NCBI GenBank assembly: GCA_021234155.1
Contig: JAJEKV010000340.1
Span: forward strand, 188,001 to 252,000
DNA: 64,000 nt
Reading direction: 5' to 3'
DNA from: Isoetes taiwanensis
Taxonomy: Eukaryota; Streptophyta; Lycopodiopsida; Isoetales; Isoetaceae
The notes below the pieces were generated by a model that saw only the letters and a program-made list of their open reading frames with translations, was not told the origin of the DNA and did no database searches. A program made the translations under genes and the position numbers. Positions 5,789-61,625 of this stretch are shown one piece after another (the stretch's first letter is position 1; every line of letters begins with the position of its first letter).

Positions 5789-5869
<81 letters not shown>
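5789..5869. repeat. (AT)n microsatellite at the left edge of duplicated unit copy 1
   Basis: About 40 AT repeats end exactly where the duplicated unit starts (AAACTTGGCCTTAGCC). The second copy of the unit is preceded by a short ATATATAA, so the tract belongs to, or marks, the boundary of the repeat. Confidence 0.95.
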
Positions 5870-5873
<4 letters not shown>

Positions 5874-12700: not shown

Positions 12701-12914
12701 CACTAACCTGGAAGCATAGTTTGCTTAGTAGATTTGAACTTGCCATTTTCGCTTGTTCTCCAATAATGCAACATATGCCATCGTAAACCAACTTGCTGAT
12801 GTCTTAGTGCAACACCAGATCATGTGAACCAAGTATTTATACTATGAGCTGTAAAGCTTGTACATGGTCAAATCCATCTGTTAATTTGATATATATATGT
12901 ATATATATATATAA
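9762..12914. mobile_element. 3.1-kb dispersed repeat, copy 2
   Basis: Direct copy of 5870-9003. Its left 570 bp carries CAG/CTG where copy 1 has CGG/CGA/ACG. Between about 10340 and 11640 the situation reverses, with copy 2 carrying the CG-containing forms. From about 11640 to the end the copies agree nearly base for base. The switching of the 'wrong' copy in blocks argues against ordinary divergence. It ends in GATATATATATG followed by (AT)n, like copy 1. Confidence 0.85.
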
Positions 12915-19150: not shown

Positions 19151-19181
19151 AAGGCAGCGGGTAACAACTTTTTTTCTCATC

Positions 19182-19769
19182 ATGTTTAAACCGGTGAAGG
19201 CGGTTGTGGATAGATTAGTTGCGTCTGGCAGACCCATTTGCGAGGAAGCTTCATTTTGTACCGAGTTCTACACACGGGCTTTCTCGACAAGCTCTCCGCT
19301 ATCAAAATCCCTTCTTTGGTTTGAAATAGAGTATCTTCCACCAGACCTACTAGTCCGGGAGTTCCTAAAGTCTATTGCCAACACGCTAGGCTCATATGTA
19401 TCTCACTCTATCGCCAAAGGGCCTAGAATTTGTGTTGCCATCACAGCCAACACCTTGAATCCCCAAAGGGGTGGTGTGAAAAGTGGTATGTGTTGCTTTA
19501 AGTTTTTACTCAAGCTATTAAATGGATGGGAAATAAGGAAGATGTTCCCAAATGTGGAACTAGAAGAAGTGATCAAACCAAGCCGGACAAGCGTCAATGA
19601 TCAAAATGCCTCAGGGGCAATGGCCAGAGAACATGTGCATGTGGCCCGGGGGCTGACACACAGGAGGAAGCCCCTCAAGGGACACATGTTCCCCTTCCGC
19701 GTTCGCGGTCACTCCCCATTTACTCCAGCTCCTTTTGACTTTTGCTACCCCTTCTTCATCCGGGTGTAA
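19182..19769 (+). CDS. LINE ORF1 (gag-like, DUF4283-type) fragment
   Basis: A 195-codon open frame. Residues about 45-110 contain LLWFEIEYLPPDLLVREF, then SIANTLGSYVS, then KGPRICVAI. This matches the pattern of plant LINE ORF1 proteins with a DUF4283-like domain (hydrophobic strand, LP.DL, helix ending in LG, then RI.V.I). Such proteins bind RNA and form the ribonucleoprotein with the ORF2 protein. The usual CCHC knuckle is not seen in this frame. A short open stretch at 19962-20156 may be its continuation after frameshifts. The ATG at 19182 is the first in frame, but the true start may lie upstream. Confidence 0.6.
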   Translation: MFKPVKAVVDRLVASGRPICEEASFCTEFYTRAFSTSSPLSKSLLWFEIEYLPPDLLVREFLKSIANTLGSYVSHSIAKGPRICVAITANTLNPQRGGVKSGMCCFKFLLKLLNGWEIRKMFPNVELEEVIKPSRTSVNDQNASGAMAREHVHVARGLTHRRKPLKGHMFPFRVRGHSPFTPAPFDFCYPFFIRV

Positions 19770-20281
19770 TGCGGAAAGCGACCCGAGTGTGCCATGTTCT
19801 AAAGTGGACACCACGGGTGGGGAGACTCAATGGCAAGTGGTGGCCTCAAACATGGTATAAGAGCTAGAAATTTGGCGAGGAAACCGAGGAGGCTCTCATG
19901 ACATGGTGAACTCAAAATGTGCAGACTCCCCTCAACCAATGTCAGCTCTGTCTAAATATATTTGGAGGTTTCTTCTCTCGAGAAGGGGGCTCTCACGGGT
20001 TTGATAACCAAGAATACTCGAGGAGCAAGGCTTCTTGTACCTGCTCACTGGGGAATCAAAAGGAAACTCCAAGCTGGGCGAGATAATGAAATAGGTACAA
20101 CAGGATGGCGTGGAGATGCTAGAGAATCCATTTGCTCTACTTGGGAAGAAAAATAAGCTTGATGCAAATATGAGTCAGATAACTTTCGGGTGAGATGAAA
20201 GGAAGAAAGCTTCGACCTCTTCCTTTAGCAACTCATTGATGACAATGGTATAGCTGGCCGTCCCACAACTTTTAACTCATG

Positions 20282-20963
20282 ATTATTGTCTCATGGAATT
20301 TTGCGTGGCATCAAGGGTGTTCTTAAGCGTGGTCGAGTGTTAGCGACTATCCAGGTCTATGAAGGCGGATGTCATCCTTCTTGAGGAGCATAGACTTCAG
20401 GACTTTGAGGCGAGGTCCATTGGCGGGTTGGATTGGAGGTAATTACTCCTCCTTTAGTTGTAAATTTGAAGGAACTAAAGGAGGCACTTTGTATCTTATG
20501 GAAGGGACAAGTCAAAAATATCAATATCGGGGAAGTGGTAGATGGCAGGTTGTAATTTTGAAACAAATAATTGTATGTGGGGGCTCATCAACATTTATGC
20601 CTCTAATATACTGCTTGAAAAGGGCGACTATGTGGAGAGAGATAGAGCTCACGGATAACTCATCGGGGTTTTGGAGTTGAAAATTGGGTCCTTGGAGGAT
20701 CTGAATATGATGAGATGTATGGGATCAAAAATTGGGTTGCACAGAATTTGCTACAAGAGGAGGAAGTTACGTGGAACTCACTTCTAAGCGGCGTTGGCTT
20801 CTCCCTAATTCCTCCATCTACTTATTTGCATTCTCTGGGTCTAATAAGCGAAGGGGCATGGCAGAGTATCTTGCTTACTAGAGCGGGTTCTACATGGCTA
20901 ATAGGACAGCCTCCTTCATGGGCCGGATGTTATGTTGAAGGAGAGCTTGCTTTCTCTCATTAG
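20282..20963 (+). pseudogene. LINE APE-type endonuclease domain, frameshifted
   Basis: Starting at 20281 the translation reads IIVSWNF, the conserved first strand of L1 endonucleases. After a frame change it continues RGIKGVLKRGRVLATIQ. After another it continues MKADVILLEEHRLQDFE, the position of the catalytic Q/E-E-(T/H) motif. Downstream frames at 20369-20680 and 20715-20963 keep strand-like segments (GTLYLMEG, WQVVILKQIIVCGG). The domain nicks target DNA to prime reverse transcription. As written it is disrupted by at least two frameshifts and stops, so either the copy is dead or the consensus is wrong. Confidence 0.65.
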
Positions 20964-21738
20964 GACCATGTGCCACAAAAGTTAGTGTTGGAGAGCATCC
21001 CTACTAAAAAGAAGAGGAGGGAATGTGCCTTTCAAGTTCAATACCTCCCTATTAGGGAAGGAGGCATTGCTTGAGACCCTTTAGGACTTTCTGGCTTCTC
21101 TAACTAATACAGAATGCCTACCTTCCATGAAGGCTTGGGTTAAAAGATCAGCCTTATGAAGATGTGGATCAAGAAATGGGGCAAGGAGGAATGCTTGAAA
21201 TTCAAGAAAGAAAAAAAATGTAGGTGTACAACCTTCTAAAGAGGATCAAAGCGGGGATCATTACTTGATCCCCATACTTGAGAGACAAACAATCCTTAGA
21301 GGAGGAACTGGAAATAAAAGCCAAAGCTATTGAGGAGGAGGAAGCCGGGGGCTGCGGTTCGTTCTAAAACAAAGTGGTATGTAAGTCGGATCATGAAAAC
21401 TCTAAGTGCTTCTTTAGAATGGCGGGGGGGATTAGCAGAGAAAAACGATATTACTTCAATTAAAGATAAGCTGTCAAAATATACTTTTCGATCCCGGGGC
21501 TATCAAGGCGTTTATTAGGGACGACTTTGGGGGCTCAATTCAAAGCGGACAATCTCCCATCTTCTTATCAATCCCAAATCTCTCTTTGGTTGGCCCAGTT
21601 AGTGGGCACATAAGATTCACGGAGATGACAACCACACTCTCTGCGTCGGTAGGGTGCAGAAGGAGATATTTAAAGTACTATGCTCTCTCAAAGCTACGGT
21701 AAGTCCCAGGCCACGATGGCTTCCCTCCTGAATTCTTT

Positions 21739-24115
21739 GTGGAGTTTTGGGACGCTCTTGGACCAGACTTTGTGGAGGCTGTTTCGGGGGCTTGGTCCTC
21801 TTGCTCGTTACATCCAACTCTAGCGGCAGGATTCATCACCTTGGTCCCAAAAGTCTCAAGACCTCAATCACTTGGAGAGTGGCGTCCCATTGCACTAACA
21901 AATGTCTTATATAAGGTTATCATGAAAGGCATCGCCAACCGTCTTAAGCCTATCTTGAACAGAGTTATTGGAAGGGAGCAATCAGCTTTTACGCGGTAGG
22001 TATATTTTGGACAATTACCTAGCGGCTAGAGAAGGTTTGCATTGGTGCTTGAATCCACCACGGCAAAATTGTGTACTTGTTAAGATGGATTTTAGAAAGG
22101 CCTACGATTCCCTTAGGTGGGATGGCCTGCGAGAAGTTATGAGCCACATGGGTTTCAATAAGCAGTTCATCGACATCTCAATGGGAATGAACAAATTTGC
22201 CTCTACATCTGTTTTGGTTAATGGTGAACCTTCTGGTCTCTTTGACCTCAGGAAGGGTATTAGGCAGGGTTGCCCGCTTGCCCCATACCTTTTTCTAATT
22301 ATGGCCAACCTTCTCACAAGGATGGTTAATCTCAAAATAATTGGAAGGGGCATCAATGGTGCGGTTCTACCGAATCAAGTAGAAAAACTCACAATCATGC
22401 AATATGCGGATGACACCTTTATGTTCCTCAGGTATGACGATGGCAGCTTTCATTCCTTTCGTGAGATATTGATTGCTTTTGAGGTTATATCAGGCATAGG
22501 GCTAAATGCCACCAAATGTTCCGTTCTATGGGCTTTAGAGGGAGATATTGACCCTCGTGCTAATGGATTGGGCTTCCCAGTCGTGGCTGCAGGGGAAACA
22601 ATTAAGCTGTTGGGTTTGCCCCTCTCTGTCTCAGATAATATGAAGGGTCTCTGGGCCCCTATTCTAGACAAACTTAGAAAAAAGGTTGGGTTATGGTCAT
22701 CTAAAGGATTATCTGTAGCAGGAAGAGTAACAGTTGCTAATGTTGTTCTGGCCAGCTCTCACATATATTCCTCGTCAGTGCTGGTAGCCCAGAAAGGAAT
22801 ATATAATCAAATACAGGTTATCATTAGAAAGTTTATTTGGGGGGGTATGGCTCATGTTGCTTGGTCCGAGCTATGTAGGGATAAAAGGGATGGAGGGATT
22901 GGATGTAAGGACCCTTTCACGCAGGCTCAAGCTCTGGCGGCTAGATTTGTCTGGCGAGTTTTACAAGGGGATACATCTCCTGCTCTGGCATTTGTTAAGC
23001 ACTGGTTTGATCTATGCAAGATTCATGGTAAACCATCTCTTCCTAGGGATGAACTAGGAGCCTTTTTTTGTAATTTTAAGGTGGCCCCTGGCACCTCCCC
23101 GGTCATGAGGCGTCTTCTTCATGCTTGGAGGGAGGTGCAAAGCAAGATGTTCCCCATAACTATACCTCGAGAAATTTGGGAAAGTCGGTATATTCGGAAC
23201 ACTCATGTATGGGAAGAGAATGGACGTCCCTTGGCATTAGTTCATCCTCGCATCTTTAAGAAATGGCGAGACCATGGGATCTTAAAATTGCAGCATCTTT
23301 GGGAAAACGATAGATGGATATCTTGGATGGAATTTAGACTCAAAGTGCAAAGAGCAGGGGAGGGTGATAGAAAGATACTACGAAAGATCCTAGATAATGT
23401 TAAGCTTCTCTCAGGGTCTACTGGTCCTGAGGAAAAGTGGTCTTGTGCAGGCAAGGAGACATACAATGTTGCAAGTATATATCGGGCCCTTTCTGATGAC
23501 TCCCCTCTTAAAGCAGAGGCTAGGCTCCAAGTGAATGGTTCAGCGGCTAAGCTCCTCTTAGCAAACTCCTGGAAAACCTTATGCTCTAGGAGAATACAAT
23601 TTTTTAGATGGGAGGCTCTCCATGGAGGTCTCAACACTAAAGTGAAGCTGGTCCATAGAGGAATTGTGTCTTCAGACCTGTGTCCTCTGGGGTGCCAGGC
23701 TAGCGAATCTCTTTCACACCTCTTCTTCTGTCCAAGAATTACTGAGTTCTGGTTTTGGGTATGCCCTATTATGAGAATGCATACGCATCAACTTCGATGG
23801 CCGAATGTTGTTATGATCTCAGACAGAGACTGTATTGACGCCTCCCTGGTTAGTGTGGCTCTCTGGATTATATGGAGGCATCGATGCGATGTCACTTTGG
23901 GGGGGCAATCTATCTCTATTGAGAAACTCAAGAGTCTTTTTAATAAGGAAGTTGCTTTAATGGCATTGTCCCACCACAGGAAAATGGGGATGAGTTACAA
24001 TAGGGGATTGGACAGAATTGGTAAGATTGAAGGATTCTATAACTACTTTAAGTGCCATTGGATGAGCTCTGAGGACCCAGACTTTCACGATAGTTCTAAT
24101 GGTGGAACAGTTTGA
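21739..24115 (+). CDS. LINE ORF2 reverse transcriptase with zf-RVT tail
   Basis: Two frames, 21739-21999 and 21968-24115, encode one RT interrupted by a two-base frame slip near 21997. The first holds the fingers motif (FITLVPK ... WRPIALTNVLYKVI ... GREQSAF). The second holds RYILDN, then LVKMDFRKAYDSL (motif A, catalytic Asp), GIRQGCPLAPYLF (motif B), MQYADDTFMFL (motif C, YADD catalytic pair), then LGLPL, the thumb region, and a C-terminal zf-RVT with FFRWEALHGGLNTK and C...C....S..HLFF.C. The long open frame of 715 codons contrasts with the broken endonuclease upstream. The slip is explained if TTTTACGCGGTAGG was originally TTTTCTGCAGGGTAGG, giving SAFLQGRYILD. Confidence 0.92.
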
Positions 24116-36439: not shown

Positions 36440-37507
36440 TTCAAAAAACCAAAGCCGCGTCCTTTACTAGATGATGCACCCGAGATAAAAGAAACGAAAT
36501 ATGAGTAATCACGGCAACTAAAATTTCCAGCAAGAATCCTCACAGAAAACGCTTGTAAATTTCTTAGACAGATTCGGTGTTATTTTCACGCCGGCAGCAT
36601 ACAATGCTAGAATAATCACGTTCTTGTAATGTACTTGTAATCTGCTGTCCCGCAGACCGAGACAAAAAATGAGCAGTGCATCTGAAAGAACAACCAAACA
36701 TGTTACCCGCAGGAAATACTAAATCTGCCACAGAAAGAAAAGCATATTCCCGACGGAACTGACCTTTTTTGCTATTGTGGAGTGCAAAATCGTTAAAGCC
36801 CAATTAGCAGCTGCAGCGACAGAAGATGCTCACGACCTCGCGTTTAGATAATTGAAAATTTCTTTCTCCTACCCACGGGCCACGTTGCGTTATTAATTTA
36901 GCCTCTAAAACCTTGTCACCTAGTTATTAATACCTTCAATTACTTTCATACGTATTTTTAATTACACCAGACTGTCATGTATTCGCGTCAAACCATTATT
37001 TTCCATTCCTTATGGCTTTTTTTTGGTAAAGTTGATGTGAGCCGTTGATTCCTGGTATATTCGTGAGATTGTTCCAGATCCATGGATATGAACATTTTGC
37101 CAGAAAAAACGCATGCCAAATCCTATGGTCCAGATAAAAACAACCGTGCCACAACATAAACCAAAGGTATGAGCGGGCTTAGAATATAAACCACAGCTGG
37201 CTTAAACCATAGCTCCTTTGCAACACAACACAACTGACACCGAACACAACTGACACCTCCACACCTCACCAAAACCTTCCCTGCCACTCGGCTGTGCTAC
37301 TCGGCTCAATCACCTGCAATCGGCACACCTGCATTTTGAATCGACCATTGTCCGGAATCCTGCAAATCGAACCATCCTGGGCACACCAGGGCTCATCTTA
37401 AGAACGTGAGCTATGATTCAGAAGCACTATGATTCAGAAGCACTGCTGCCTTCTTATCTAAGACCTCTTGTGCCAATGCCAATGGTAAGCACCGAATTTG
37501 AACCCCC
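36440..37507. promoter_or_regulatory. LPP 5' UTR exon and probable promoter region
   Basis: The LPP transcript must begin upstream (higher coordinate) of its first coding exon. A plausible 5' exon ends at 36439 with donor GTTCTT, a weak match. The minus strand from 36803 to 36564 has an 80-codon frame that could be an upstream ORF or chance. A CCACGTTGCG word lies at 36888. I cannot place a TATA box or transcription start. The stretch 36995-37030 resembles 49730-49800. Confidence 0.35.
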
Positions 37508-38368
37508 GGGTCCTCGCATGATACGCTGTCTCATTTTTAGTGTCCTTTTGTCCACCCAAATTAGCACTATTTTTTAGTATTATGGAAGAGGGAAATTCAA
37601 AATTAACGAGAATATCGGGGGGTGGTTGATTCCCCCTTTCTCGAGGGAGAGAGATCTCGTTTCTTTCATTCCATCCATTTTTGTTCGGGGCTTCTTGTGA
37701 TCCAATGACTAATGACGAAGGCGAGGCCCGGAAATGGCGTTTGCGTATAAGCGGCAAAGAGCAAGCAAGATGAGGCAATAATTGTCAAATGAAAATTTAG
37801 ATTGGAGTATTGAGCACTCAAAAAAGCAATTGCAACATTCAGCCTCCATAATCACAAAAACGTTTTTGGATTTGTGGGTTCGATGTCTCTGAGACGGAAA
37901 AGAAAGAAGTATGGCATCTAGTGGAGAAACGGCAAAGTTATGCGAGGGTTGCGGTGGGCGATAAGGAAAAGATTGTTCACGGTGACATTGTCGGTGAGCA
38001 TCCAAGAAACCATACAAAGATGTGAAAGGAGTGGAGTCCAATGACAAATTAGCGAAAAAGAGCAAAGATTAGTCATGGCACTTGGGAAGGTCGGACATGG
38101 CAAAGAAAAGATTACCGCCAAGGCTTTAGGAATTCATCCAAGGAATTGTTCCAGAGCTAAGAAGCACCGTGTTGCAATTAGTAATAAAAACGCATTGTGG
38201 CCTCTTGGGGGAAGGAAGAAGAGAATGGATTCCCTGAGCCAAGAAGTCATTGAAAAAGTTGTGGGTTATTGGACAAACTACACCAGAGTTTCGCCTAACT
38301 TCAAGGACGTCAGATCTGGTAGAGGAAAACATCCTAAGCATCCAACACATTACCTTGATGTGAGCCAG

Positions 38369-38915
38369 GTATACTATCTGTAGTCTTTTTCACGTTTACT
38401 AATACTAATATTTTTTATAAGTTTTGAAGTATTGATTCTAATATGATCTGCTAATGAAATTAATCTGCACGTTCTTCTCGTGGTAGCAAGTCTTAGTGCT
38501 ATTGATGGTTGATAATGGATCATTTTTTGATATAGTGCTAAGGTTTCTCACCTTTATAATGTTGATGCCACGTTTAGTAATTGTGTTGATGTTAGTGCCA
38601 CTGTTAGTGATTTTGTAAATGACAGTGCTAATATTACTAATTTCGTTAATGTTGTTCCACTGTTAGTAATTTTGTCAATGTTAGCACTAAACTTAATCTG
38701 TAGTTAGTGAAGCACCACCTACCACTACAGATTAGCAATGCTTTCATCTCAATGTCCTAGCACTGGTTAGTGGTTTTGTTTGCTAAGGGTTATGTTGTAA
38801 TGCTAATGGAATCAGTAATTAGTTCTAAGTTGCTATTCATTAGCAGTTGTTTTTTCTAGTGGTATTAGCATTAGCATTAGCATTTACTAAGTAGTTTTCT
38901 ATTCTTATTCTGCAG
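38369..38915 (+). other. Intron 1 of the transposase-like gene
   Basis: Donor CAG|GTATAC and acceptor TTCTGCAG|ACAG join codons in phase 0. The 547-bp intron is full of GTTAGTG/GTTAATG/TTAGCA words at roughly 20-40 bp spacing (38580-38880). It contains TTAGCACTAAACTTAATCT at 38681, which recurs with one mismatch at 48093, outside the RING gene. Confidence 0.75.
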
Positions 38916-39412
38916 ACAGAATTCTTCACTAGTTTCAAGCAAGACAATCCAGATGTTCAAATTAAGCAGAGAGCCTTCGAGAAATTAAAGCCTTACTTTG
39001 TTGTAAAGCTATCGAATTCAAATACCGTTGTTGCGTCTATCATGAGAGGATGTCAATCTTTGAGGGAAGGGGTGAAGAACATGAGGAAAAAGTCCATGGT
39101 CTTGTGGTCGCATTGCACTGTGAGTGCAAGATATGTGACCACACGGCAAGCCAAGTAAGGTGCAATGCAGCAAGACATGTTTGGCAGTCTAACAGTGACA
39201 TGTGGAGAAGCATGGTTTGCCCAAAGCCTGAAGGTGAGGAGTGGCACAATGAAGCATGCTTGTCAGGAACCTACAACAAATGTGGTGTGGACAAAATGGA
39301 AAGGTGTCCAAAAGAAGAAGCAACGGACAGTACCTCTAAAATCACTTGGGAGAACATAGACTACATTGAAATTGGTAAGGATAAAAATGGCAAACCCAAA
39401 AAAAAAGAATTG

Positions 39413-40468
39413 AGCATCAATATTTGGGAATTGAGATAACAGAAAATTACAGATGGAATACAGCAGTAGATAAGAGAGTTGTTGGTGGAAAGAAAGCTTT
39501 ATACGCAATGCAAGCTAAATGTAGAACAATTCAGCTATGGGACTGGTCCATGCGGCTTCATTTATATCGAGCTTTAGTTATGCTTGTAATATTGTATGGA
39601 TGCCAGATATGGGGACCGGGTTTAGCAAGAAAAAAGTGGAAAGATATAGAAGCAGTCCAAAAGCGCTATCTAATGGATGAGCTCGGAGTTAAACTCCAAA
39701 CACCATATGCCATGATGCTTGCTGAAGTTGGTATGTTGCCATTAGAGGGAGAGGCAATCTATCAATACCTTGTTTATGTAACCAGAGTTAAAGCCTTACC
39801 ACATGAAAGGCTACCATATAAGGCAACGGAAGAAAGCAAGGAAAATGGTTGGTATGCAGATGGAGAATTATGGCTGCAAAGATGGAATATTAGTATGAAC
39901 GATATGCCATCACGAGAAGAAGCTATTCGAGACCTTGTCAGGACCAAAGTGATCGAGAAATTATGGGCCAACCCACAAGGCAAGATGGACTTTTACAGAC
40001 GTGAAATAAATCCCATGGTTATGTACACAGCACAACAATATTTGATAGACCATCTGCCTATGTCATCTAGGCACCAGATTTGTCGGATGAGGGTTAGTTC
40101 CCATCACCTACAAGTCGAGTGTGGAAGGTGGCATAAATTACCAAGGTCCAGTCGCATATGTCAGGTGTGTCAGACAGGGGAAGTGGAGGACGAGCATCAC
40201 GTTTTGCTTAGTTGTGCAGCTTATACATCTGTAAGAGAGCGACACAAGATCCAGGAAACAGATTGTGTGAATATTTATACTTTTTTTCAGTTGCCATCAT
40301 GGAAACTAGCAAATTTTCTCACGGAAATGTTGCTTGTTCGTGATGCACAACTAAATAAGTAGCCTAGGTCATAAGGTTTTTTAAGAAGTGCGCCTACTAT
40401 GTAAACATTTCGTCTCCTAGACCGTAGGGTCTTTAAGAGATCGTGAATAATCAATTCAATTCAATTCA
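39413..40468 (+). mobile_element. 5'-truncated LINE inserted in the transposase gene
   Basis: The 312-codon frame 39424-40362 (preceded by YLGIE in the same frame) covers the post-catalytic part of a LINE ORF2. It contains YRWNTAVDKRVVGGKKALYA, LYRALVMLVILYGCQIWGPG, and then the C-terminal WHKLPRSSRICQVCQTG with DEHHVLLSCAAY (zf-RVT type). The catalytic YADD region is absent. After the stop comes a short 3' UTR, CCGTAGGGTCTTTAAGAGAT and a TCAATTCAATTCAATTCATT tail. Host coding is present on both sides, so the insertion is secondary. No target-site duplication was recognised. Confidence 0.85.
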
Positions 40469-41929
40469 TTTACAGACTTCATCCAATGTTTTGATGGAAA
40501 CCTTCAGGTCTAAAGCAAAGGAGTTTGTGACACATAATTTCAGGTATAAATGGTAGCAAGCCATGTTTAGACAACTACTGAACAGGTTTGCTGATGATAC
40601 TATTGTATATGCACCTCACATATAGAAGGGATCCTGAGACACAAGAAATGATCAAGGAAGAACATTTTTATATATCTGATGACAGAAATGATTATTTGTT
40701 TGTGCAGCATTGCTTTCTCTTATACAATCATTGGATGTAAGAGAAGGAAATCACTTTGAAGATGCATTATGTCTTCTCAGATGGTGCAGCCTCACAATTC
40801 AAAGGTAAAAAATCATTTTACTTTGATGCTAGATTCAAATCTTTAACAGGTTTAGACATTTGGTGCTCTGGCCATGGGAAGGGAGAACATGATGGTATAG
40901 GAGCAGTAATAAAGAGGGCTTTGAGAGCAGCACAGTTGAAGGGCAACAAGATGACCAATGCACAGGAGGTGGTGGAATGGCTAAAGCAGTACATCTCAAC
41001 AGCAGCACCCACAACATATAAAAAAAAGATTCAAACTGTAAGTAGAACTTTTTGGGGGGTTGAAATAGGACAAGTGGACAGAAAAAATCAGTGGGAAGCA
41101 CGTCTTATTGAAGGATATAGAAACCTTCATTGTTTCCATGGGTGTTCAAATCACATGACACATTTACAGGTCAGAAACCTCTCTTGCTTTTGCACATATT
41201 GTTTAGATTTGAATTGGGAATCTTGCCCCAATGTATCATATACTAAGAAGTTTGAACTAGTTGTGGTACAGCCCATCAAAGCTATTATTGAAGAAGAAGT
41301 ACATGATGAAGGAGAAGAAGCATATATTGGCAGCGCTGACTTATGTAGCATGCAAGTATCTATAGGTGATGTCTTTGCAGTGGTAGCTCCAAATAACAAT
41401 CACGAGAATGTGAAATTCTACCTTATCCTATGTACCAAAGCTAAGTACTTGGTGTTAGAAGACTTTGTAGATATGCAAGGGCAAAAGTTTGTGAAAGGGG
41501 ATGAGGTCATAGAAGGGACATACTATGAGAAGTTGGTGAATTGTAAATCCAGCTACAAGTTTTGTAGAGGAAATAAAGCAATTGTTTATGCCACTCAAGT
41601 TGCAAAGAACAAAATCAGGTTGGTTGAAGCAAAGCATGTTCTTAAGCGGGGAGTGGTTTACACTCTAAGTGCCAAAGAAGAACAAGATATTCTAGAGAGG
41701 CTTCCCACGTTGTTGGAATAGTGGAAAGAGCAATTATGTAAAGGGTACTGTATAGATACTTTTATGAATATAAAGAAGTTTCTGTATTTTGCATTCTCAT
41801 TTTTTATGCTTCAGTTACAGAATTTTGTACTCGAATGTTGAATGAATTCCAAATTTCAATCAATTTCAATTGTTGGTGTTTCATAGTATTTTAAATTGCT
41901 GGTATATAAACAGGGCACTGAGGCCAATT

Positions 41930-42495
41930 TACAAGGTAAAACATCTAAGTACAAGGTATAACAAAACCAATTTACAAGGTACAACAGAATTAGAAAAAGA
42001 GACAAGGCACAAATTTACACAAATTTACAGAAAGGCACAAGGCCATCTTCCACATTAAAGAAGGCACTAAGGCCTGGATTACAGAAGGCACAAGGCCTGG
42101 ATTACAGTCGGCACAAGGCCATTACAATTAAAGGCACTAAGGCCTGGATTAAACAAAAGGCACAAGGTCTGGATTAAACTGAAGGCACAAGGTATAATAA
42201 AAAGGTATTACAAAACCAATTGATTAAAACAGAAAACAAAACCATAATACTTGACATGTAATAAATCAGAGAATTTTCAGAAAGGCACAAGGCCATCATA
42301 TATTACAATAGGCACTAAGGCCACGTGTTACACAAGGGTTTCAAACCATTACATTTCAAAGGCACTAAGGCCTGTTTCACAGAAGGGTCATTACAAAGAA
42401 AGGCATTAAGGCCATTACAAAGAAAGGCACTAAGGCCTATAGCATCTGTTTTTAAAAAAAATTACAAAGGCACAAAAGGCCTGTTTCTGAAGAAC
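41930..42495. repeat. Degenerate AAGGCACTAAGGCC / AAGGCACAAGGCC array
   Basis: About twenty imperfect copies of AAGGCAC(T)AAGGCCTGGATTA or shorter versions, alternating 'cactaagg' and 'cacaagg', start from TACAAGGTA words near 41930 and run to 42495. The array begins about 200 bp after the transposase stop codon. It is non-coding and highly variable in unit length (13-40 bp). Confidence 0.85.
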
Positions 42496-42649
42496 TTGAT
42501 CAAAAAAAAAAAAAAGCAAAACATGTCTTCATGAGCTGCCGAGACTTCAAGCTTCATCTGTAAGAAAAGTTCAGAAAGTTAGAAAGCTCTATGGGAAAGA
42601 AAGCAAAAAATGAAATTGCGTGCGACTTACTCTCCAGCCAATTTTGAAA

Positions 42650-43099
42650 TTAAAAAAAAATGTCTTCTTCTTCTAGGTCCGGGTCTTCTTCTTCGCTGGT
42701 CGTCTCAGATTCGCTCCAGACCTCATCTGCTGAATCATACTGCTGCTCTTCGGAGGAATCCACGTCAGAGGAATCCACTTCTGAAGAATCCACCTCAGAA
42801 GAAAGCTCAGAAAGAGAGTATTCAGATTTCTTTGGAATCGGAGTCGCTTGTATTCAGCCGCTTGCTCTCGGCCAAATGTAATTGGTCGACATTAATTCTT
42901 CAAGGTCTTCTTTGGGCTCCTGCAAAGGAATTATCCAAGAACCTATGCCATAACTAGCGAGGACCTCTGCCAAAGATAAGGAAATTAAGGACCGACGTTT
43001 GGAAGGGCCAGGGGCAAGGGAAGCAGAGCGGGAGCGGGAGCGGCAGCGCTTCGACATTCTGTTTGGGAGAATTGGACGATGCTTCTCCCTCACGACCAT
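42650..43099 (-). pseudogene. Small bipartite protein: basic Arg/Ser N-terminus, acidic C-terminus
   Basis: The minus-strand frame from ATG at 43099 reads through RCRSRSRSASLAPGPSKRR, a hydrophobic patch (SLAEVLASYGIGSWIIPL) and LEELMSTNYIWPRASG. It meets a TGA at 42856-42854 and continues in the same frame as a strongly acidic Glu/Ser/Asp tail (SEVDSSEVDSSDVDSSEE, TSEEEDPDLEEEDIFF) to TAA at 42650. Total 149 codons with the one internal stop. The plus strand over the tail is Ser-rich and open, which is its shadow. No family recognised. Its place between the two convergent genes suggests a third protein of the transposon. Confidence 0.5.
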
Positions 43100-43329
43100 A
43101 GCCTATAAAGACTGGCGTGAAATTAATTTCGTAGGCTACGATTTTAGGATTTTCGTACCATTAGTATCTTAATCGTAATGATTTAGTAGGATACGAAGTG
43201 AAATGTAATTACCTCGAAATGACCATAATTTTATTTTCTAAAACATTACAAAAAAAAAAAAATTATCTATCCTAAAATGGCCATTCTTTTTTGGACACCA
43301 ATCATCTTATGTTGGCTTGGCACTTGTTT

Positions 43330-45080
43330 AATAATTGTAATTATAATTAGTTAGTGTAAATTGCTTGTTGACTTCAAAATTGTTGACTTACGCTTCACCA
43401 AACATGTTGGTCAATGAAAGTCAAATATGTAACAAAGGGGGTAATTCACACTTGTTGACTTGAAAATTGTTGTCTTACATAATATGCCTTAACATAATGC
43501 ATAGAATAGCATATGTCAAAATTGTTGCCTTACGCTTTACCAAATGCTTGGGGGTGATTCACACTTGTTGACTTGAAAATTGTTGACTCACGCTTTATGA
43601 AACATTGGTCAATGAAAGTAAAACTTTAGCTTAGGGGTGATTCATACTTGTTGACTTGAAAATTGTTGACTTACGCTTTACCAAAGATGTTGGTCAATAA
43701 AAGTCAAACATTTTGCTTGGGGGTGATTCACACTTCTTGACTTGAAAGTTGTTGACTTACACAATATGCCTTAACATAATGCATAGAATAGCATAGGTCA
43801 AAACTGTTGACTTATGCTTTACCAAATGCTTGGGGGTGATTCACACTTGTTGACTTGAAAATTGTTGACTCACGCTTTACCAAACATGTTGATCAATGAA
43901 AGTAAAACTTTAGCTTAGGGGTGATTCATACTTGTTGACTTGAAAATTGTTGACTTTGTTGTACCAAAGGCGTTGGTCAATAAAAAGTCAAACATTTTGC
44001 TTGGGGTGATTCGGACTTCTTGACTTGAAAGTTGTTGACTTACACAATATCCGTGAACATAATGCATAGAATAGCATAGGTCAAAACTGTTGACTTATGC
44101 TTTACCAAATGCTTGGGGGTGATTCATACTTGTTGACTTAAAAATTGTTGACTCACGCTTTACCAAACATGTTGGTCAATGAAAGTCAAACTTTAGCTTA
44201 GGGGTGAAAATTGTTGAATTACACAATATGCCTTAACATAATGCATAGAATAGCATAGGTCAAAATTGTTGCCTTACGCTTTACCAAATGCTTGGGGGTG
44301 ATTCACACTTGTTGACTTGAAAATTGTTGACTCACGCTTTTACTGAAACATTTTGGTCAATGAAAGTAAAACTTTAGCTTAGGGGTGATTCATACTTGTT
44401 GACTTGAAAATTGTTGACTTACGCTTTACCAAAGATGTTGGTCAATAAAAGTCAAATATTTTGCTTGGGGGTGATTCACACTTCTTGACTTGAAAGTTGT
44501 TGACTTACACAATATGCCTTAACATAATGCATAGAATAGCATAGGTCAAAACTATTGACTTATGCTTTACCAAATGCTTGGGGGTGATTCACACTTGTTG
44601 ACTTGAAAATTGTTGACTCACGCTTTATCAAACATGTTGGTCAATGAAAGTAAAACTTTAGCTTAGGGGTGATTCATACTTGTTGACTTGAAAATTGTTG
44701 ACTTATGCTGTACCAAAGATGTTGGTCAATAAAAGTCAAACATTTTGCTTGGGGGTGATTCAGACTTCTTGACTTAAAAGTTGTTGACTTACACAATATG
44801 CCTTAACATAATGCATAGAATAGCATAGGTCAAAACTGTTGACTTATGCTTTACCAAATGCTTGGGGGTGATTCACACTTGTTGACTTGAAAATTGTTGA
44901 CTCACGCTTTACCAAACATGTTGGTCAATGAAAGTCAAACTTTAGCTTAGGGGTGAAAATTGTTGACTTACACAATATGCCTTAACATAATGCATAGAAT
45001 AGCATAGGTCAAAATTGCATAGGTACACAATATGCCTTAACATAATCCATTCATTTGGCATTTGTTGATTTGGCAATTGT
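43330..45080. repeat. W-box-rich satellite, ~283-bp higher-order unit
   Basis: The higher-order repeats can be tracked by CTTGGGGGTGATTCA. Its G-run starts at 43550, 43832, 44115, 44294, 44580 and 44864, spacings of 282, 283, 179, 286 and 284; the 179 is a shortened unit. Each full unit has about three subunits with TTGACTTGAAAATTGTTGACT and ends with ACACAATATGCCTTAACATA and ATGCATAGAATAGCATAGGT. TTGAC, the W-box core, occurs several times per unit in one orientation. There are no spacers of unique sequence, so it is not CRISPR-like. Confidence 0.95.
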
Positions 45081-45179
45081 TGATTTGGTAACATGTGGAA
45101 CATTGAATGCATGTGGGATATTTGAGCCCATTACTAAAAAAAAGGGTGGACGAGGATTACATTTTGAAAGGTCATGACA

Positions 45180-45212
45180 CTCTGGCCTGTAACTGAAGAT
45201 TACAAGCCAGAG
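45180..45212. other. 13-bp-stem hairpin after the satellite
   Basis: CTCTGGCCTGTAA (45180-45192) pairs with TTACAAGCCAGAG (45200-45212), with one G-T mismatch and a 7-base loop. It lies between the satellite and the 3' end of the RING gene, so it could take part in 3'-end formation or protect against convergent transcription. That role is inference. Confidence 0.8.
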
Positions 45213-45479
45213 AGCCATAGCCTTTCATCATCTAATCTCTATACACACTCTTCAATGAAGCAGCAAAAAACTATTTATATATGCGCACGAATTTTGTAAT
45301 ATATGCATGTGGGATATTGCTAACTTTGTGTTAGGTTTGTGCTAATTTTGGGGTTGCTTTTTTTATAATTTTGGGAACTGCATACCAGAGAATTATAAAG
45401 TTCTTTAAACGTTTGTGGTGTTGATGAACACCAAATTGCAATAAAAAAGGGATCTAGTATTTCAAAAACATACAACAGT

Positions 45480-47843
45480 TTAGGACAAGTCCATGGTCTT
45501 TAGTACCTCTAACACTTTTGTGCTTTTCTCATCATACTGATTTCGAAAATGCACAGACCTCTGTACATAAGCCATTACGTTCACTTCTGTTATTAGCTTC
45601 TCCAAGTAAGGTATCATAGTCTTCAACAGGTAATCACCGTCATTTATGTCAGGCATGAAGGACCTTGGTGTGATGCAGGAATCTGCATTATTCTTAAAAT
45701 TCACGTACCTGTAAGGATCAATCATTGTCCTCATGCTAAATTCTGGACATTTCTCATAAACTTTTGTGAGTTTTTTGATGTAGCAAGAAGTTCCTCCATT
45801 CATTTTCAAAGGATGCACCATCCATTTGAAAATAAACTTATCCACTAAGGACTGAGGAATGAAAGACCTCAGGCAGCTAATCACTGAGTGATTGGAAGAC
45901 CATATACCAACAGCAAAATGTTCGGTGATTTAAAATCGTGAATCAGACCGGCGGCCCGACAAAGAAGAACCTCTTTTCTTGATGGAAGAAGTTGGACACC
46001 TTCCACCACATCAGGTACTGCTTTAGCCTTTTTGGAAACCTTGTACAGGAAATCCTCTGGCTCATTAACCAGAAGCTTTTTGCCAACAACACTAGCACTG
46101 TGCAATGACAACTATTAGAGAAATTATATCAATACAACAGGCAGAAAGAAACACACTAGAATCACCTTAGTTTCTTAGTTATTGATCTGGATGGAGCTCG
46201 TTTGATGGAGGAAACCTGCTTGGAATTATTCTTAGAAGGAGATTCTCCAACTGATGCCAAATCAGTTTCTTCCTCTGTGATTGTCTTCTCCACCACGTTT
46301 GTCCAAATTGGAAACATAATCATCTATATTCTTCAACACTGCTTCACATTCTTCATCTATTACTTGCACAACATTGTCTTCAATTCTGTTAGAAATGTCA
46401 CTATAGAGTTTGAAATATCCAAACTTGAGCCTGCATAATTCAAATTATCAAACTAAATAAGTACTTATAGAAGAAAAATCCAAAGTAGTTATACTTCACA
46501 AGAATAACTTACTTTTCAGTCTTTTACAACTATTACTTTGTTCAGCATTGTCTCTCTTCAAGTTTGGGCTTGTGGAAAATAATAAAGTGCAATCTTCAAT
46601 GGATTGCATAATTATGTCAGGCTCCTCCAAGTCAGCAGGTGTGCTTAATGATGGATCTTGACTCTTTTCAATGGACTGCACTGCACTATAATTGGGAGCA
46701 GATTCCATTGCAGATCTACCTGGAAGTCCAATGGACCTGAACCAATTATGAGGCATCTGGCTCTCACAAGAGGGACAAGTTGATCTCTTTGAGAAACATA
46801 TGTAAGCGAAAATTGAATGAAAACTGTGCATGCAATGTGCAACAATAGCTGAGACACAAAGTGGGTCATAGGCATATGTACAGAAAGAACAACTTTGTAA
46901 TTTTGCAAATGCTACGGTAGAGCATTTTGGATGTTCCAAAAATGGAATGTTGAGTTACAGTCCAGACATCTTATTTAGAGATGAAGCTATTTCTTTCAAC
47001 TTCTCCAGCCTTGGTTGGAGTCTATGTTCTTCGTCTTCTGCCTGTTTAAAAATAAAAAGAATGATGAAGCAGAAAGAAAAAGTATTGAGCACTATGTAAT
47101 TGCAAAGGTCATTAGCAATTACCCCTTTGTGAATTTCCTCCATACTCTTGTATGCTGTTGTCGCCTCCAAAAGTTCCTTTTCCTTGGAAACCAACATTGA
47201 CGACAAGAATGTAATGACACTGGAGTGCTCACACCTGGCCTTTGCTGCTTCAATTTGCTGTTTTGCAGCATCCACCTCGTAACTGCACTTCTTCCACAAC
47301 TTCCTTTTTTCCTTCATTTCACTGGCTGCACTTTTAACTCTAACATTCAAGTCATCCTTCTGCTTATCTAACTCAGCAATCAAGGAGTTGATGACAGAAT
47401 AGTCCACTACACAACCAACAACGTTTGTATGAGGAAACTGACTCATACTCATCTTCTTTCTCAACCTTAGCTGTAACACTTTTCTTCGTTTTAACCACAA
47501 ATGACTGCCAGTTAATCTTTTGTCATCTCACATGCAAAGTGAATGCCCGTGCAAAAAACTTCCCAATCTCTCCAACACAAACATCAGTTCTTTGGTAACG
47601 TCTTCTGTAGATGTTCACAAACTGATCCTCAAATAGTGGATTCATTCGACTAGACTTATAAATTTGCTTGGTACCCACCAGTTTTACACAACCAAATATT
47701 TTGCTTATCTCATCTTCAGCCACATCTGCCGTTCTTACATCTGAAGAGGTCATGCCCTCAGAAGGCAACACAGATGTGTCAAACATCCTCCTTGCTTCCT
47801 CTTCGTCTATGGTCACTTTAGGTTGAGTTTTCTTTGTTGCCAT
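45480..47843 (-). pseudogene. Spliced coiled-coil / RING-like protein, second transposon gene
   Basis: Exon A 47843-47523 (MATKKTQPKVTIDEEEARRM...), exon B 47500-47123 (coiled coil, e.g. LIAELDKQKDDLNVRVKSAA), intron 47122-47042, exon C 47041-46513, exon D 46430-46166, exon E 46097-45480. Introns B/C, C/D and D/E have GT-AG borders. Exon C has a RING-like pattern (CSFC, then HCMHSFHSIF, then CPSCESQMP). Exon E encodes a conserved-looking C-terminal domain (FLYKVSKKAKAVPDVVEG, then SMRTMIDPYRYVNFKN). Breaks: an unresolved A/B junction, a TAA at 46957-46955 within exon C, and frameshifts near 46295 and 45924. The last is repaired exactly if CCGAAC is read as CCAGAAC. Likely an accessory protein of the element; no named family recognised. 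Confidence 0.55.
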
Positions 47844-48640
47844 TCTATCCCTGCACCAGCTTTGAAATTATATATCACTGGAAGTTCTTCATTGTGTATG
47901 CAAAAAGCTAAACCAATCCAAATCATAGCACTAAGTATCCTGAATAGTATTAACTCTAAGAGCTTAGCAATGAACTGCTACTTTTTCCAAATAATTACTA
48001 ATTGTCATCAACACCAATTACCTTGGGCCTACTGTCTGCAAAATAGCAAATGCTTAGCATGTCATGCTAAATAGCAGCTAACTCTTTCTAACTTAGCACT
48101 AAACTTCATCTTCTTAGCAACCGTCGCTAATAACAATTTGAGCCTGCAAGTGTAGCACAAAATTTGCGTTCTTAATGTAACCTGCTACTTAGCAAATGTT
48201 GCCTGCAAACATAGAATAAAATCACTAAGTAACTCGGGTACACAGCATATACTAACTAGCAAGTACTGCCTGCGAAATATAGTACCAATATAACCTGTTA
48301 GCATAAACATAGTACCAAATGCTTAACTCGTTAGCATCAACTACTGAACTTGCACGACCAAACATTACTGCGTTGTACTTTCCGCTGATGCCAAGCCCAA
48401 AAAATTCGAGCTTGAAATATCACACTAATAAAGAGATGAATCAAAGCAAGATGGAATGCAATCCTCCACACCTGCTACATTAACCTTTGTCTTCAATATA
48501 GAAGCATGAAATATAATAGAATGAAACCATTTCCACATTACTTACCATTCCCAAAGATTTGTCAACAAAGATTAGATGCTTACCACTAAAACAACTTTTT
48601 TTGAGTCTGAGAAATTGTTCAGACAAGTAATTTGATCCGA
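47844..48640. other. Upstream region of the RING-like gene
   Basis: Rich in TTAGCA/TAGCAA words (47950-48330), resembling the GTTAGT/TTAGCA-rich intron of the transposase gene and including the near-identical 19-mer at 48093. A 67-codon minus-strand frame at 48480-48683 might be a 5' exon, but nothing connects it to 47843. Confidence 0.45.
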
Positions 48641-48935
48641 GCTCTTTACCAAGCAGGGTAATGGGATCTCGATTGTCTGGCAATCAATTGTTTAGAATGG
48701 TACAAATAACCGAATTCGATAATTACTGCTGTGGAAGTAGCACAGTCACAGCAATTTAATCTGGCCAGTTAACCAAGCAGGGAAATGGGATCGCGATTGG
48801 GGATTTTGTTGAATCTAATGACTGGCAATTGTTTAGAATGGTACAAATAACGGATTTCGATAATTACTGTTGTAGGAGCAGTACAGTCACAGCAATTTGA
48901 TCCGGCCAGTTAACCAAGCAGAGTACGTGGATCTC
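48640..48935. repeat. Subterminal tandem repeats, ~130 bp
   Basis: Two full copies and a partial one share GGCAATTGTTTAGAATGGTA, CAAATAAC.GA.TTCGATAA, AGTCACAGCAATTTGATC (or TTTAATC) and GGCCAGTTAACCAAGCAG, followed by ATGGGATC.CGATTG. Tandem repeats just inside a terminus are typical binding sites for transposase or accessory proteins in several DNA transposon superfamilies. Here they lie 190-480 bp from the proposed right end. Confidence 0.85.
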
Positions 48936-49124
48936 GATGGGGAGCAGCTATGTTTCTGAATCCGATCCAAGAAACTCCAAGAAAGAAGGAAAGGAGGAAA
49001 TGTTCGACGGTTTAGGATCCCATGGGCGGGATTTAGTGCTAAAATAAAATTCAAAAATTCAGTTAAACCCCCTTGCAGGGCTAAAAATGGCGTCATTTAT
49101 GCCACCCGTAGCGTGCGAGGACCC

Positions 49125-50599
49125 CCACCAATTCCTACACTACTCTAAATACAGATTGAACGGGTCTATTCCTGGACTTTGAATCGGCAGAATGAACTCC
49201 TGCCAGCCTGCACCTCAATGCCCAGCCTGCATCTCTGAAGAAATCGAATCGGCAGCCCTCAACAAGGAGTCGAATCGGCAGCCCTCAACAAGCCGCCCCT
49301 GTATCCTCCTCATAGCAACTGGAATTAGCCCCCACGAACTATTAAGCCTCTCTCTGCCCTGTCATCTGACCTGTTTCTATCATCTGCCCTGTTTCCAACC
49401 GGATTGTTGCAACTGCTCAAAGATTGCACACCTTTCTCTGGAACCGCCAAGAATGGCATGCCATCCACACCTGTCTTCCCAATAGACATGCCCATGTGCG
49501 CATTCCATGCCTTCCATTCTCGTACCATGCCTACAAACGCTAAGAAAACACATACCCACAGCCCAATTTGGAACATCTACCTTTCAGAGCTAACAAGCAG
49601 CTCAAATCAGCTAAAAAATACAGCTTGACTACGTTTTTGCATATAATACAGTGGCAAAATCTTGGCAAAACCATGCCAGAAATACCGCCTCCAAATACCA
49701 AACGAAATAATTAGAAGTTTATGGCAATTGCCGCGTCAAACTATTAATATATATTTTTCATTATTCATTATTTTTCATTCCTTTCCTTATGGATTTTTTT
49801 TGCATCTTCTATTCCTGACCATTAATCTCTGGAATATTCCGCGTTTTATGCCAGATCAAAGGCCATTACATTTTTCATCAACAATTTGCCTGCCACTTGC
49901 AACGGTTCAAACCGAACACATGGTTCCAAGCAAAAAAAAAAGGCCAAAAATCTCCAAACTGGAAAAGGCAATGGTGCGTGGCCACGAAGCCTTCAACAGG
50001 CATTCCGTCAATCTTCTCTGGCCTTCCGAGCCCCTTCAATCCTTGGGTGGGCATAAAGCTTCACTCGCTCCAGGAATAGGGCTCACCACGCCAAAATTTG
50101 CTCTACCTCTCTCAAAACCACCACAAAGGCCGCTGACAATGATTTGTTCCGGAGGATGTAGGCAGGCCATCAATTTGTTTGATCCCCTTGATCAAACAGG
50201 GATCTCAGGAAGAAACTTTTCGGATCACTCTTCCTTTTCTGACCTGCAATCGGATGGTCGATTGGATTCATAAATTTGTCACGATTCAACAAAATGAAAC
50301 GCAGCATGGCCATCTCAGATTCAGCCGGAACCCTTGCCTGGAAGGCCGCCCCTGCCCAAAGAAGAAAGAGGTGTGCATTCTTATCCTTCCCTTCTCAAAC
50401 CATGCATACAAACCACAAAAAAAAACACATCCCAGAGCCGAAAGTTAATGAGATGGTAATTCAAAAGTTAATTTGAGAAGGAAAAAAACTAAGTTCCGAA
50501 TTATTGAAGGGCGGAATCATGTTATTTGTCCAATAAACTTTTCTAAAGTAAAACTACGTTTTTAAAGTAAAACTTTTCTACCTTTCATGTGCTTTTTTA
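49125..50599. other. Repeat-like sequence outside the right transposon end
   Basis: GAATCGGCAGCCCTCAACAA is duplicated at 49244-49282. The 203-codon plus frame 49662-50273 has a hydrophobic patch but no domain. CGCGTCAAAC.ATTA...CATTCCT.ATGG near 49728-49800 resembles 36985-37020, left of the transposon and in the same orientation, so both sides contain a related older repeat. No gene is recognised. Confidence 0.4.
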
Positions 50600-55601: not shown

Positions 55602-57031
55602 TTGGAATCAAGTATTACTATCGATGACTTGCATTCTGCTGTAGACTCTTTAAAGAAGAATAAGTGCCCAGACTTGGATGGTTTTCCTAAAGAGTTTTTC
55701 CAAGCTTATTGGAATTGGCTTGGTTTCGCCGGTTCAGGAGCTTGGATAAGATCATCAACACTGGTTGCATTTCCCTTACTCCTAAGTGCAAAGAGCCTAA
55801 AACCATCTCGGATTGGCGCCCTATAACTTTGCTATCTACGGTGTACAAGATCTTTGCTAAGGCCTTGGCAGAGAAAGTGAGAGATATCTTGGCAGAATCT
55901 ATCTCCTTCACACAATCAGGTTTTTTACCTAAGCGTTGTATTCTTGATAATGTGGCTGCAGCTTATGAGGGGATGCATTGGGCGCGCCTAAAGGGTCAGC
56001 ACATTGTATATCTCAAATTGGATTTTGCTAAAGCCTATGACAGCATAGATTGGAATTCCTACAAAAATGCCTTATGACATTGGGATTTGGAGAGTTGTTT
56101 ACCAGAGATGGTTATGAAGCTCCATCTTTTTGCTCGATCTACTATGCTTTTTCAGGGAGAACCGTCCGCTATGTTTCCTGTTGGTAGAGGAGTTCGACAA
56201 GGATGTCCCCTTGCCCCGTTATTGTTCACTATTGTGGCAGAGGTATTATCCCAGCTATTCTCTTCGGCTACTCAAGATGGCATAATTCGGGGATTGACTA
56301 TGGAGGATGGTTCTCAAGAAGTGTGCAATCCGTATGCCGATGATATATTTCTCTTTCTAGTGGCTGAGGATGATAATCTTCAGAATGCTAAGCTTTTGCT
56401 GGACTCTTACTCCCTGGCTTCAGGGGTTCTTGTTGGGTGGCTAAAGTGCTCTGCTTTATGGACTTTGGATGTGGATGTTCCTCCCTGTGTTTACGAGCAT
56501 CCATGGAAAGTGCTTCCTCAAGGGAAGGCCACTAAACTCTTCGGCATTCCTGTAGGTATACATATCTCTACTTCAGATGCATGGGATGTTATAGTGGAAG
56601 GCCTGCGTAAGCATCTTTTTTGGTGGAATACAGCTAAGCTTTCTCTGGCAGGGTGGATAGTAGTTGCTAAGCAGGTTCTCAGAAACACTCATATGTATAT
56701 GGCATTTGCTGTGCTTGCTTCACAAATAAAGTTTCAAGAGGTTGTCGCAATTGTCTATAACTTCATTTGGGCAGGTACTGAGACAGGTCTAGTTGTGGAG
56801 GTCGCTTGGTCCACATGTATCAAACCAAAATTTGCTGGAGGTTTAGGTATGATTGACTTTCATTTACAGAGTAAAATTATGATATCTAAGTTCATTTGTC
56901 GCTACTTGGCGGGTATGTTACATTCGTCTGGAATGAGATTGGTTGCGCAAGCACTTGGGCAGTGTATTCCTTTTTGGAAACCGGCACTTAGTGCAGTTCT
57001 TTGGTCTAGTGGTAATACACTAGTTCCTTAG
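55602..57031 (+). pseudogene. Reverse transcriptase of the second L1-like LINE
   Basis: Frames in order: 55602-55826 (SITIDDLHSAVDSLKKNKCP, DGFPKEFFQAYW), 55709-56077 (GCISLTPKCKEPKTISDWRP, SGFLPKRCILDN, YLKLDFAKAYDSIDW with the motif A Asp), a TGA, then 56087-57031 (GRGVRQGCPLAPLLF motif B, NPYADDIFLFL motif C, KLFGIPVG, thumb). The catalytic residues are intact, but one frameshift and one in-frame stop separate fingers from palm. 57031 is an artificial stop caused by the SINE. Confidence 0.88.
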
Positions 57032-61019: not shown

Positions 61020-61625
61020 TAATTAAGACAGGAATAGAGGAGAATGTCCTAGAAAGTTCTAGAATGTTCTTGATAGTTCTACAAAGTTCAAGAATGTTCT
61101 GAAATACTCTAGATAGTTTTGGAATGCTCTAGAATGTTCTAGGAAGTTCAAAAAGTTCTAAATATTCTAGATTGTTCTAGAAGTTCAAGTGGACGCAATC
61201 TGAGCCGTTGGATCTGGTGGCCCATCTCATCCATCCATTTGTCCACAAATATCGCACATGCATTCGTGCAAAAATGAGGCCCATTTTCCAGTATATAAGG
61301 GGGCCATCCACATGAGGATGGGCATTCTGATTCACCGCTAGAATGTTCTAGAATTCTCTAGAAAGTTCTAGAATGTTCAAAATAATTTTAAAATATTTTA
61401 GAAAGTTCAGGAGTCTACTAGATTGCTAGAGTTCTAAAATATTTCAAAAAATTCTAGAATGTCCTAGAACATTCCAGAAAGTTTTAGAATATTCTAGAAT
61501 ACTCTAGAAAGTTGTAGAATCTTCTAGAAGATTCTAGAATATTGTTCTAGAAATTTCTAGAATCTCCTAAAAGAATTTAGGATCTTCTAGAAAGTTCTAA
61601 AGGATTCTAGATAGTTCTACAATGT
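61020..61625. repeat. Array of TTCTAGAA-type imperfect palindromes
   Basis: Dense repeats of GTTCTAGAATGTTCTAGAAA and variants with a basic period near 10-11 bp, interrupted at 61185-61335 by unique sequence. Many positions contain GAA..TTC or TTC..GAA in the alternating arrangement of eukaryotic heat-shock elements. No gene adjoins it on either side within 3 kb. Confidence 0.9.

Follow-up and report, generated by a model that had tools for sequence, protein, structure and literature searches.

The 64,000-nucleotide stretch of Isoetes taiwanensis DNA analysed here (contig JAJEKV010000340.1, positions 188,001 to 252,000 of the forward strand; hereafter the window) contains, at positions 37508-49124, an 11,617-bp sequence that is most probably a decayed copy of a cut-and-paste DNA transposon with terminal inverted repeats (TIRs), a transposase gene and an accessory partner gene. 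Copies with the same ends were found elsewhere in the genome. An earlier note, made from the sequence without database searches, had proposed a DNA transposon in which a transposase and a RING/coiled-coil partner lie between imperfect inverted repeats, and this was supported by the ends, the target-site duplications and the co-occurrence of the two genes. Cut-and-paste movement is deduced from the ends, the duplications, uninterrupted insertion sites and purifying selection. A helper role of the partner is suggested by its repeated association with the transposase and by its probable constraint.

The left TIR (GGGTCCTCGCATGATACG) lies on the plus strand at 37508-37525 and the right TIR (GGGTCCTCGCACGCTACG, minus-strand reading) at 49107-49124; 16 of their 18 positions are identical. 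Both were shared by other copies and recovered as a genome-wide pattern. They are bordered by CCCC (37504-37507) and CCAC (49125-49128), the remnants of a target-site duplication agreeing at three of four bases. Ten copies of the transposase core, each with about 10 kb per side, were aligned to the window and are referred to as the near copies or near family. The alignment started exactly at 37508 in four of them (C908, C1089, C913 and C1071). In C933 and C268 it extended slightly beyond this base, at which GGG was present; C1078 retained only GGGTCCTCG of the left repeat, followed by a deletion, and the left end was absent from C974, C960 and C1026. On the right side, the alignment ended exactly at 49124 in five near copies (C974, C908, C1089, C933 and C960), 1-3 bases beyond in C1078, C1071 and C268, and at 49109, within a diverged last stretch, in C913; C1026 was without the right end. 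The TIR of the near family is about 18 bp long and begins with 5'-GGGTC, giving element termini GGGT...ACCC.

All seven near copies having both ends were flanked by perfect 4-bp duplications: AAGT (C908), GCTA (C1089), TTAT (C913), TGCC (C933), TCAA (C1078), TCAA (C1071) and CAAT (C268). With the more distant copies C23, C1105 and C1033, described below, perfect 4-bp duplications were found in ten elements. The earlier note had rated the ends as its weakest part and had made the single-element model depend on copies ending at GGGTCCTCGC and on the two genes occurring together; the near copies bore out the ends, which they share, with 4-bp duplications. The proposed size of about 11.6 kb is right for the window copy but not as a typical size, since four of the seven two-ended near copies measured 8.9-9.6 kb and three 10.4-12.8 kb. 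Genome-wide, GGGTCCTCGCAYGNTACG was found with at most one mismatch at 278 sites (133 and 145 by strand), against 12 (8 and 4) for the reversed control. Among the 100 sites listed, 15 pairs faced inward within 25 kb, at distances of 8.0-19.9 kb; two pairs were on the same strand and none faced outward. No inward pair was less than 3 kb apart among these 100 sites, so miniature derivatives are not evident there.

The association of the two genes was counted from genome searches with parts of each (1,658,258,908 bases in 1,110 contigs). The 321-residue frame at 40756-41721, singled out in the earlier note, is real and repeated: it gave 136 genome matches, the best full-length ones at 94-95%, 125 of 7,377 candidates having been scored. 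The RING part of the partner gave 153 matches; 150 of its 815 candidates had been scored, and the counts below rest on the 150 matches listed. After merging, 121 transposase loci and 147 RING loci were obtained. Among the matches listed, a convergent RING locus, downstream on the opposite strand and within 25 kb, accompanied 65 of the 121 transposase loci; about 0.1 such pairs would be expected by chance from these counts, as an estimate. The expected co-occurrence thus held. Within the partner itself, a RING match was located 0.7-6.5 kb upstream on the same strand for 45 of the 50 NIF matches listed.

The transposase gene is on the plus strand. Exon 1 (37715-38368), recognized by its frame and GT donor, encodes the basic N-terminal part; it is frameshifted here, open in other copies and homologous in C1105 and C23. 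A putative GT...AG intron (38369-38915), placed by sequence and comparison with copies, separates it from exon 2 (38916-41721), which is interrupted in the window and forms a continuous frame of about 620 residues in relatives. The surviving core and C-terminal part (40741-41721), an open frame with genome matches, carries the motifs SDGAASQFK and HGKGEHDG. In the C23 transposase the conserved acidic residues are D221 (VSILDFAEN), D306 (SDGAASQFK) and E345/D347 (HGKGEHDG), giving a candidate catalytic triad D-84-D-38/40-E/D. This order of motifs is the one that an RNase H-type transposase, as described in PMC8230255, would show, and the protein may have such a fold. Relatives of the transposase were absent from the viral contigs searched outside the genome. 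In other genome contigs, one query found none and a second found one decayed copy with 29% identity (L037 4568-5424), in a contig binned as an uncultured Trichormus cyanobacterium (ERR2144891). This contig is probably Azolla fern DNA in the bin of its cyanobiont, which would extend the family to ferns.

The partner gene (45480-47843) is on the minus strand. Its exons, placed by comparison of splice sites, are 47843-47123, 47041-46513, 46430-46166 and 46097-45480. Together they encode an N-terminal domain followed by a coiled coil (judged by eye, without a program), a RING-H2-like cluster, an acidic linker and a NIF domain. The three junctions were located in 10, 7 and 7 of 11 copies, the window included, and every one located preserved the reading frame and was bordered by GT...AG sites. 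The first intron also continues the frame and would be spliced out. The RING-H2-like cluster (46766-46894, minus strand) reads C-x2-C-x15-C-x-H-x2-H-x2-C-x10-C-x2-C. When compared with the ligand spacing of RING-H2 domains, its eight metal ligands were found in place and appropriately spaced in the near family and in C23. The C-terminal exon (45480-46097) encodes a NIF (FCP1/SCP-type phosphatase) domain, frameshifted in the window and matched genome-wide. In the undamaged exon of C960, PF03031 was recognized with E=1.3e-8 and 35.1 bits, against a gathering cut-off of 21.8; the C23 piece alone gave no Pfam match. The catalytic nucleophile motif of NIF/FCP1-type phosphatases is DxDx(T/V). Here the near family has EPEDF, C23 has EINDF and C1033 has ELDGV, and the motif is unreadable in C1105. 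Wherever it can be read, the nucleophile Asp is replaced by Glu, so the domain is unlikely to be an active phosphatase. The coiled-coil/RING gene of the earlier note is real and co-occurs with the transposase, but its NIF domain had been missed.

Three copies belonging to two further families agreed with this layout and had GGGT termini and duplications of 4 bp; their transposases are 46-62% identical. The transposases of C23 (11,308 bp) and C1105 (11,734 bp) share about 56-62% identity with that of the near family. Both elements have GGGTCCAAGCA as their ends, are flanked by the duplications GCCA and CAAT, respectively, and carry the same minus-strand partner. C1033 measures 9,771 bp, has ends GGGTTAAAGCA and GGGTCAAAGCA and duplication AAAA, and retains an undamaged transposase frame of 674 residues with 46% identity to C23. 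The N-terminal domain of its partner was recognized at 26% identity (E 1.4e-10), with a helical stretch that looks coiled-coil-like by eye. C1033 is inserted in a Gypsy gag-pol frame. Its joined flanks had 14 genome matches: 12 were uninterrupted and the other two were its own flanks, which overlap by 4 bases. With the N-terminal domain of C1033 as query, 150 matches were obtained from 1,931 candidates in the genome, and the pairing of this domain with 22 transposases of 41-47% identity was read by eye among the matches listed. The domain was convergent and downstream within about 11 kb in 4 of the 22 (C1033, C928, C1066 and C1078); it was 18 kb upstream on the same strand in C1036 and 33 kb downstream in C1026. 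Many further lineages were also seen in this genome, for example at G000:C1063:4451624-4461027 and C1089:16101636-16103513, with 42-47% for the N-terminal domain of the partner, in open frames, and 41-47% for the transposase. The three families studied are thus only a part of the group.

Selection was assessed from the ratio of nonsynonymous to synonymous substitution rates (dN/dS). Codons were excluded where local identity fell below 30%, a filter that favours apparent constraint. For the transposase, dN/dS was 0.12-0.14 in six of nine pairs with C23 or C1105, and dS was saturated in the other three. For the NIF domain it was 0.20 between C23 and C1105. Saturation of dS also affected the six remaining NIF comparisons involving C23 or C1105, as well as three RING and two coiled-coil comparisons against C23; in these pairs the proportion of nonsynonymous differences (pN) was 0.29-0.44 against 0.75-0.90 for synonymous ones (pS). 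These ratios show purifying selection on the transposase between families, and probably on the partner as well. Within the near family, pairs of transposases and of partners gave 0.48-1.30, as expected for copies that decay after insertion.

Several observations weigh against this picture of a transposase with a dedicated partner. No convergent partner was present at 56 of the 121 transposase loci among the matches listed (none at 53, another arrangement at three), a shortfall due in part to fragmentary copies and to the use of listed matches only. No Pfam family or PDB sequence matched the transposase significantly, and an AlphaFold model of the window core alone reached a predicted local distance difference test score (pLDDT) of only 36; both bear on the proposed fold. 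The Pfam match to RING is weak, its scores of 11.2-12.7 bits lying under the cut-off of 27.3, and saturation of dS prevents an estimate of selection on the RING and coiled-coil regions in comparisons with C23. The partner frame was broken by frameshifts or stops in all four copies translated throughout, and some of these breaks may be errors of the Nanopore-based assembly. In C1033 the RING match is weak (E 0.025, crossing stops, with six of the eight ligands sharing a frame) and only the first NIF motif, ELDGV, was recognized (E 0.013). The relative at 16.1 Mb of C1089 (41% identity, undamaged transposase) has no partner before a run of N. Finally, the role of the partner is one that we infer.

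The window copy itself is damaged. A 5'-truncated long interspersed nuclear element (LINE) with a TTCAA tail lies on the plus strand at 39426-40467, with ATTT on both sides; it is absent from nine of the ten near copies, those covering the site. This LINE is inside the transposase gene, and the cysteine-histidine cluster at the C-terminal end of its coding sequence is therefore foreign to the element; one of the zinc clusters attributed to the plus-strand gene in the earlier note belongs to it. At 40606-40611, comparison with five near copies revealed an 89-bp deletion which removed the first catalytic Asp (VVDFAEN). With the LINE insertion and this deletion, the window copy cannot encode an active transposase and is non-autonomous; it could move only in trans.

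Between the two genes lies a tandem array rich in TTGAC (43364-45018), reported before as an internal W-box satellite. The array exists, but its length varies between copies: TTGAC was counted 68 times in the window copy and 18-38 times in seven other near copies. Together with the LINE, this expansion makes the window copy larger. The variation in size led to the rejection of a role of the satellite in the mechanism. A small open reading frame (ORF) encoding a basic-then-acidic protein lies on the minus strand at 42650-43057, with one in-frame stop. Corresponding frames of 119-186 residues were found in eight near copies and of 112 residues in C974; in C908 no frame of at least 110 residues was listed. 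Pairwise dN/dS was 0.26-1.03 (28 pairs, eight copies). The ORF, counted in the earlier note among the genes of the element, was seen only in the near family; the two divergent copies searched for it, C23 and C1105, gave no match.

Subterminal repeats of about 130 bp had also been proposed, and were confirmed near the right end (48626-48942) as direct repeats: 48626-48801 and 48750-48942 are 76% identical with an offset of 124-141 bp. Among enriched subterminal 7-mers, none was common to the four elements searched. The motif TTAGYRCTA(A), picked by eye, clusters at the ends in the near family, C23 and C1105, and occurs once only in C1033. In the window element, C23 and C1105 its occurrences are confined almost entirely to the 2 kb at each end. 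It is possibly a transposase-binding site, and is offered as a lead only.

Other features of the window lie outside the element. The window has 14 perfect three-unit heat-shock elements (8 GAAnnTTCnnGAA and 6 TTCnnGAAnnTTC), all of them in one array at 61052-61585, which is possibly a heat-responsive repeat or a retrotransposon promoter. A direct duplication of 3.18 kb, with 95.3% identity, is formed by 5863-9003 and 9756-12911, about 0.75 kb apart; it could be a segmental duplication or a pair of long terminal repeats. LINE sequences with a weak DUF4283-like ORF, a reverse transcriptase and a zf-RVT domain were found at 19152-24115, and a second LINE reverse transcriptase fragment at 56078-57031. 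Rfam gave no match within the window.

For the two-gene transposon proposed here, the following mechanism is suggested. The plus-strand DDE/D transposase would bind the GGGTC termini, and perhaps also the subterminal TTAGYRCTA motifs, excise the element and reinsert it at target sites cut with a stagger of 4 bp. The minus-strand protein would most likely be a dedicated accessory factor dimerizing through its coiled coil. Its RING-like and catalytically altered NIF domains may serve as docking surfaces on host nuclear proteins; the ubiquitin machinery and the phosphorylated tail of RNA polymerase II are candidate targets guessed from the domains. Such docking might assist transposition or escape from silencing. 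Few descriptions of DNA transposon families in lycophytes were found. If movement requires the partner, the element would represent a plant transposon system of two genes, one of them for a protein with RING and NIF-type domains, and the altered phosphatase domain would offer a way to test how host transcription or silencing is read or manipulated by a transposon. The exact ends and the duplication length can be used to annotate these families in Isoetes and to seek them in ferns and mosses.

As to classification, there is about an even chance that the element belongs to the Sola superfamily (Sola1) as an ordinary member whose accessory gene is specific to its lineage. According to PMC3627910, PMC10741241, PMC9033089 and PMC12477816, Sola elements have DDD transposases, 4-bp duplications and TIRs of at least 11 bp, are mostly 2-9 kb and sometimes more than 15 kb long, and are known in the moss Physcomitrella (Sola1). 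Duplication length, TIRs and size all fit: the ten elements have 4-bp duplications, the window copy retaining three of four bases, and the near family has TIRs of about 18 bp. A Sola1 element of Ectocarpus with a gene on the opposite strand is also described. The comparison drew on published descriptions of Sola. Against Sola membership, one paper gives AT-rich duplications for Sola2, while TGCC, GCTA and GCCA occur here. The superfamily is thus unproven; the element is Sola-like by its duplication length and is not assigned to Sola.

A separate, unnamed DDE/D superfamily of early land plants, with GGGT ends, 4-bp duplications and a RING-NIF partner, is possible but rather doubtful. It would account for a transposase covered by no Pfam family, for several families of the same layout in one genome and for the decayed relative in what is probably fern DNA. 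A missing Pfam model is weak evidence, however, and the rival Sola assignment was judged by description only. A stronger version is unlikely: a lycophyte and fern superfamily that needs its own partner of RING and pseudo-phosphatase type, this partner steering insertion or blocking silencing by docking on RNA polymerase II or on the ubiquitin system, as an interface with host transcription that the transposon itself encodes. Less likely again is that the RING-NIF gene is a passenger captured from the host with no role in movement. Large DNA transposons often carry other genes, as in Ectocarpus, and the catalytic motif is altered; yet the place and orientation of the partner are constant in three families, and amino-acid-changing differences between families are fewer than silent ones. 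That the inverted repeats are a chance match, as the earlier note had considered, and the genes unrelated neighbours has a negligible probability. An 18-bp repeat with two mismatches from a wide search is weak alone, but the shared ends, duplications, co-occurrence and uninterrupted sites refute this explanation.

Several named superfamilies were excluded. Duplications are 3 bp long for CACTA, about 9 for MULE (Mutator), 8 for hAT, 3 for PIF/Harbinger and 2 for Tc1/Mariner. The 4-bp duplications found here exclude all five, and no Pfam transposase was matched; for Mariner, the duplication is TA. The earlier note had found no match to CACTA, MULE, hAT, PIF or Helitron by order or motifs. Kolobok and piggyBac duplications are TTAA-specific; here they are varied and none of ten is TTAA, which excludes both. 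Ginger elements have 5'-TG...CA-3' ends and TIRs of 40-270 bp, and were excluded by the ends GGGT...ACCC and the length of about 18 bp. No description of a transposon with a RING-NIF partner was found in the open-licence papers searched. The family is plausibly undescribed, as judged against descriptions of the named superfamilies.

Among known systems, the element resembles Sola1 in its 4-bp duplications, inverted-repeat ends, large size, candidate three-acid transposase and presence in early land plants, and differs from Sola1 as described in its RING-NIF partner. The C-terminal domain of this partner resembles the NLI-interacting-factor (FCP1/SCP) phosphatases of PF03031, the gathering cut-off of which it exceeds. 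Unlike them, it has EPEDF, EINDF or ELDGV in place of the nucleophile motif and is placed after a coiled coil and a RING-like cluster. Kolobok is similar in its 5'-RR...YY-3' termini, and KolobokP also in its gene arrangement, with an accessory gene downstream of the transposase gene and on the opposite strand. PIF/Harbinger, Mutator and CACTA elements each use two dedicated proteins, and the element described here is like them in encoding two; for Harbinger, two tail-to-tail genes are described.

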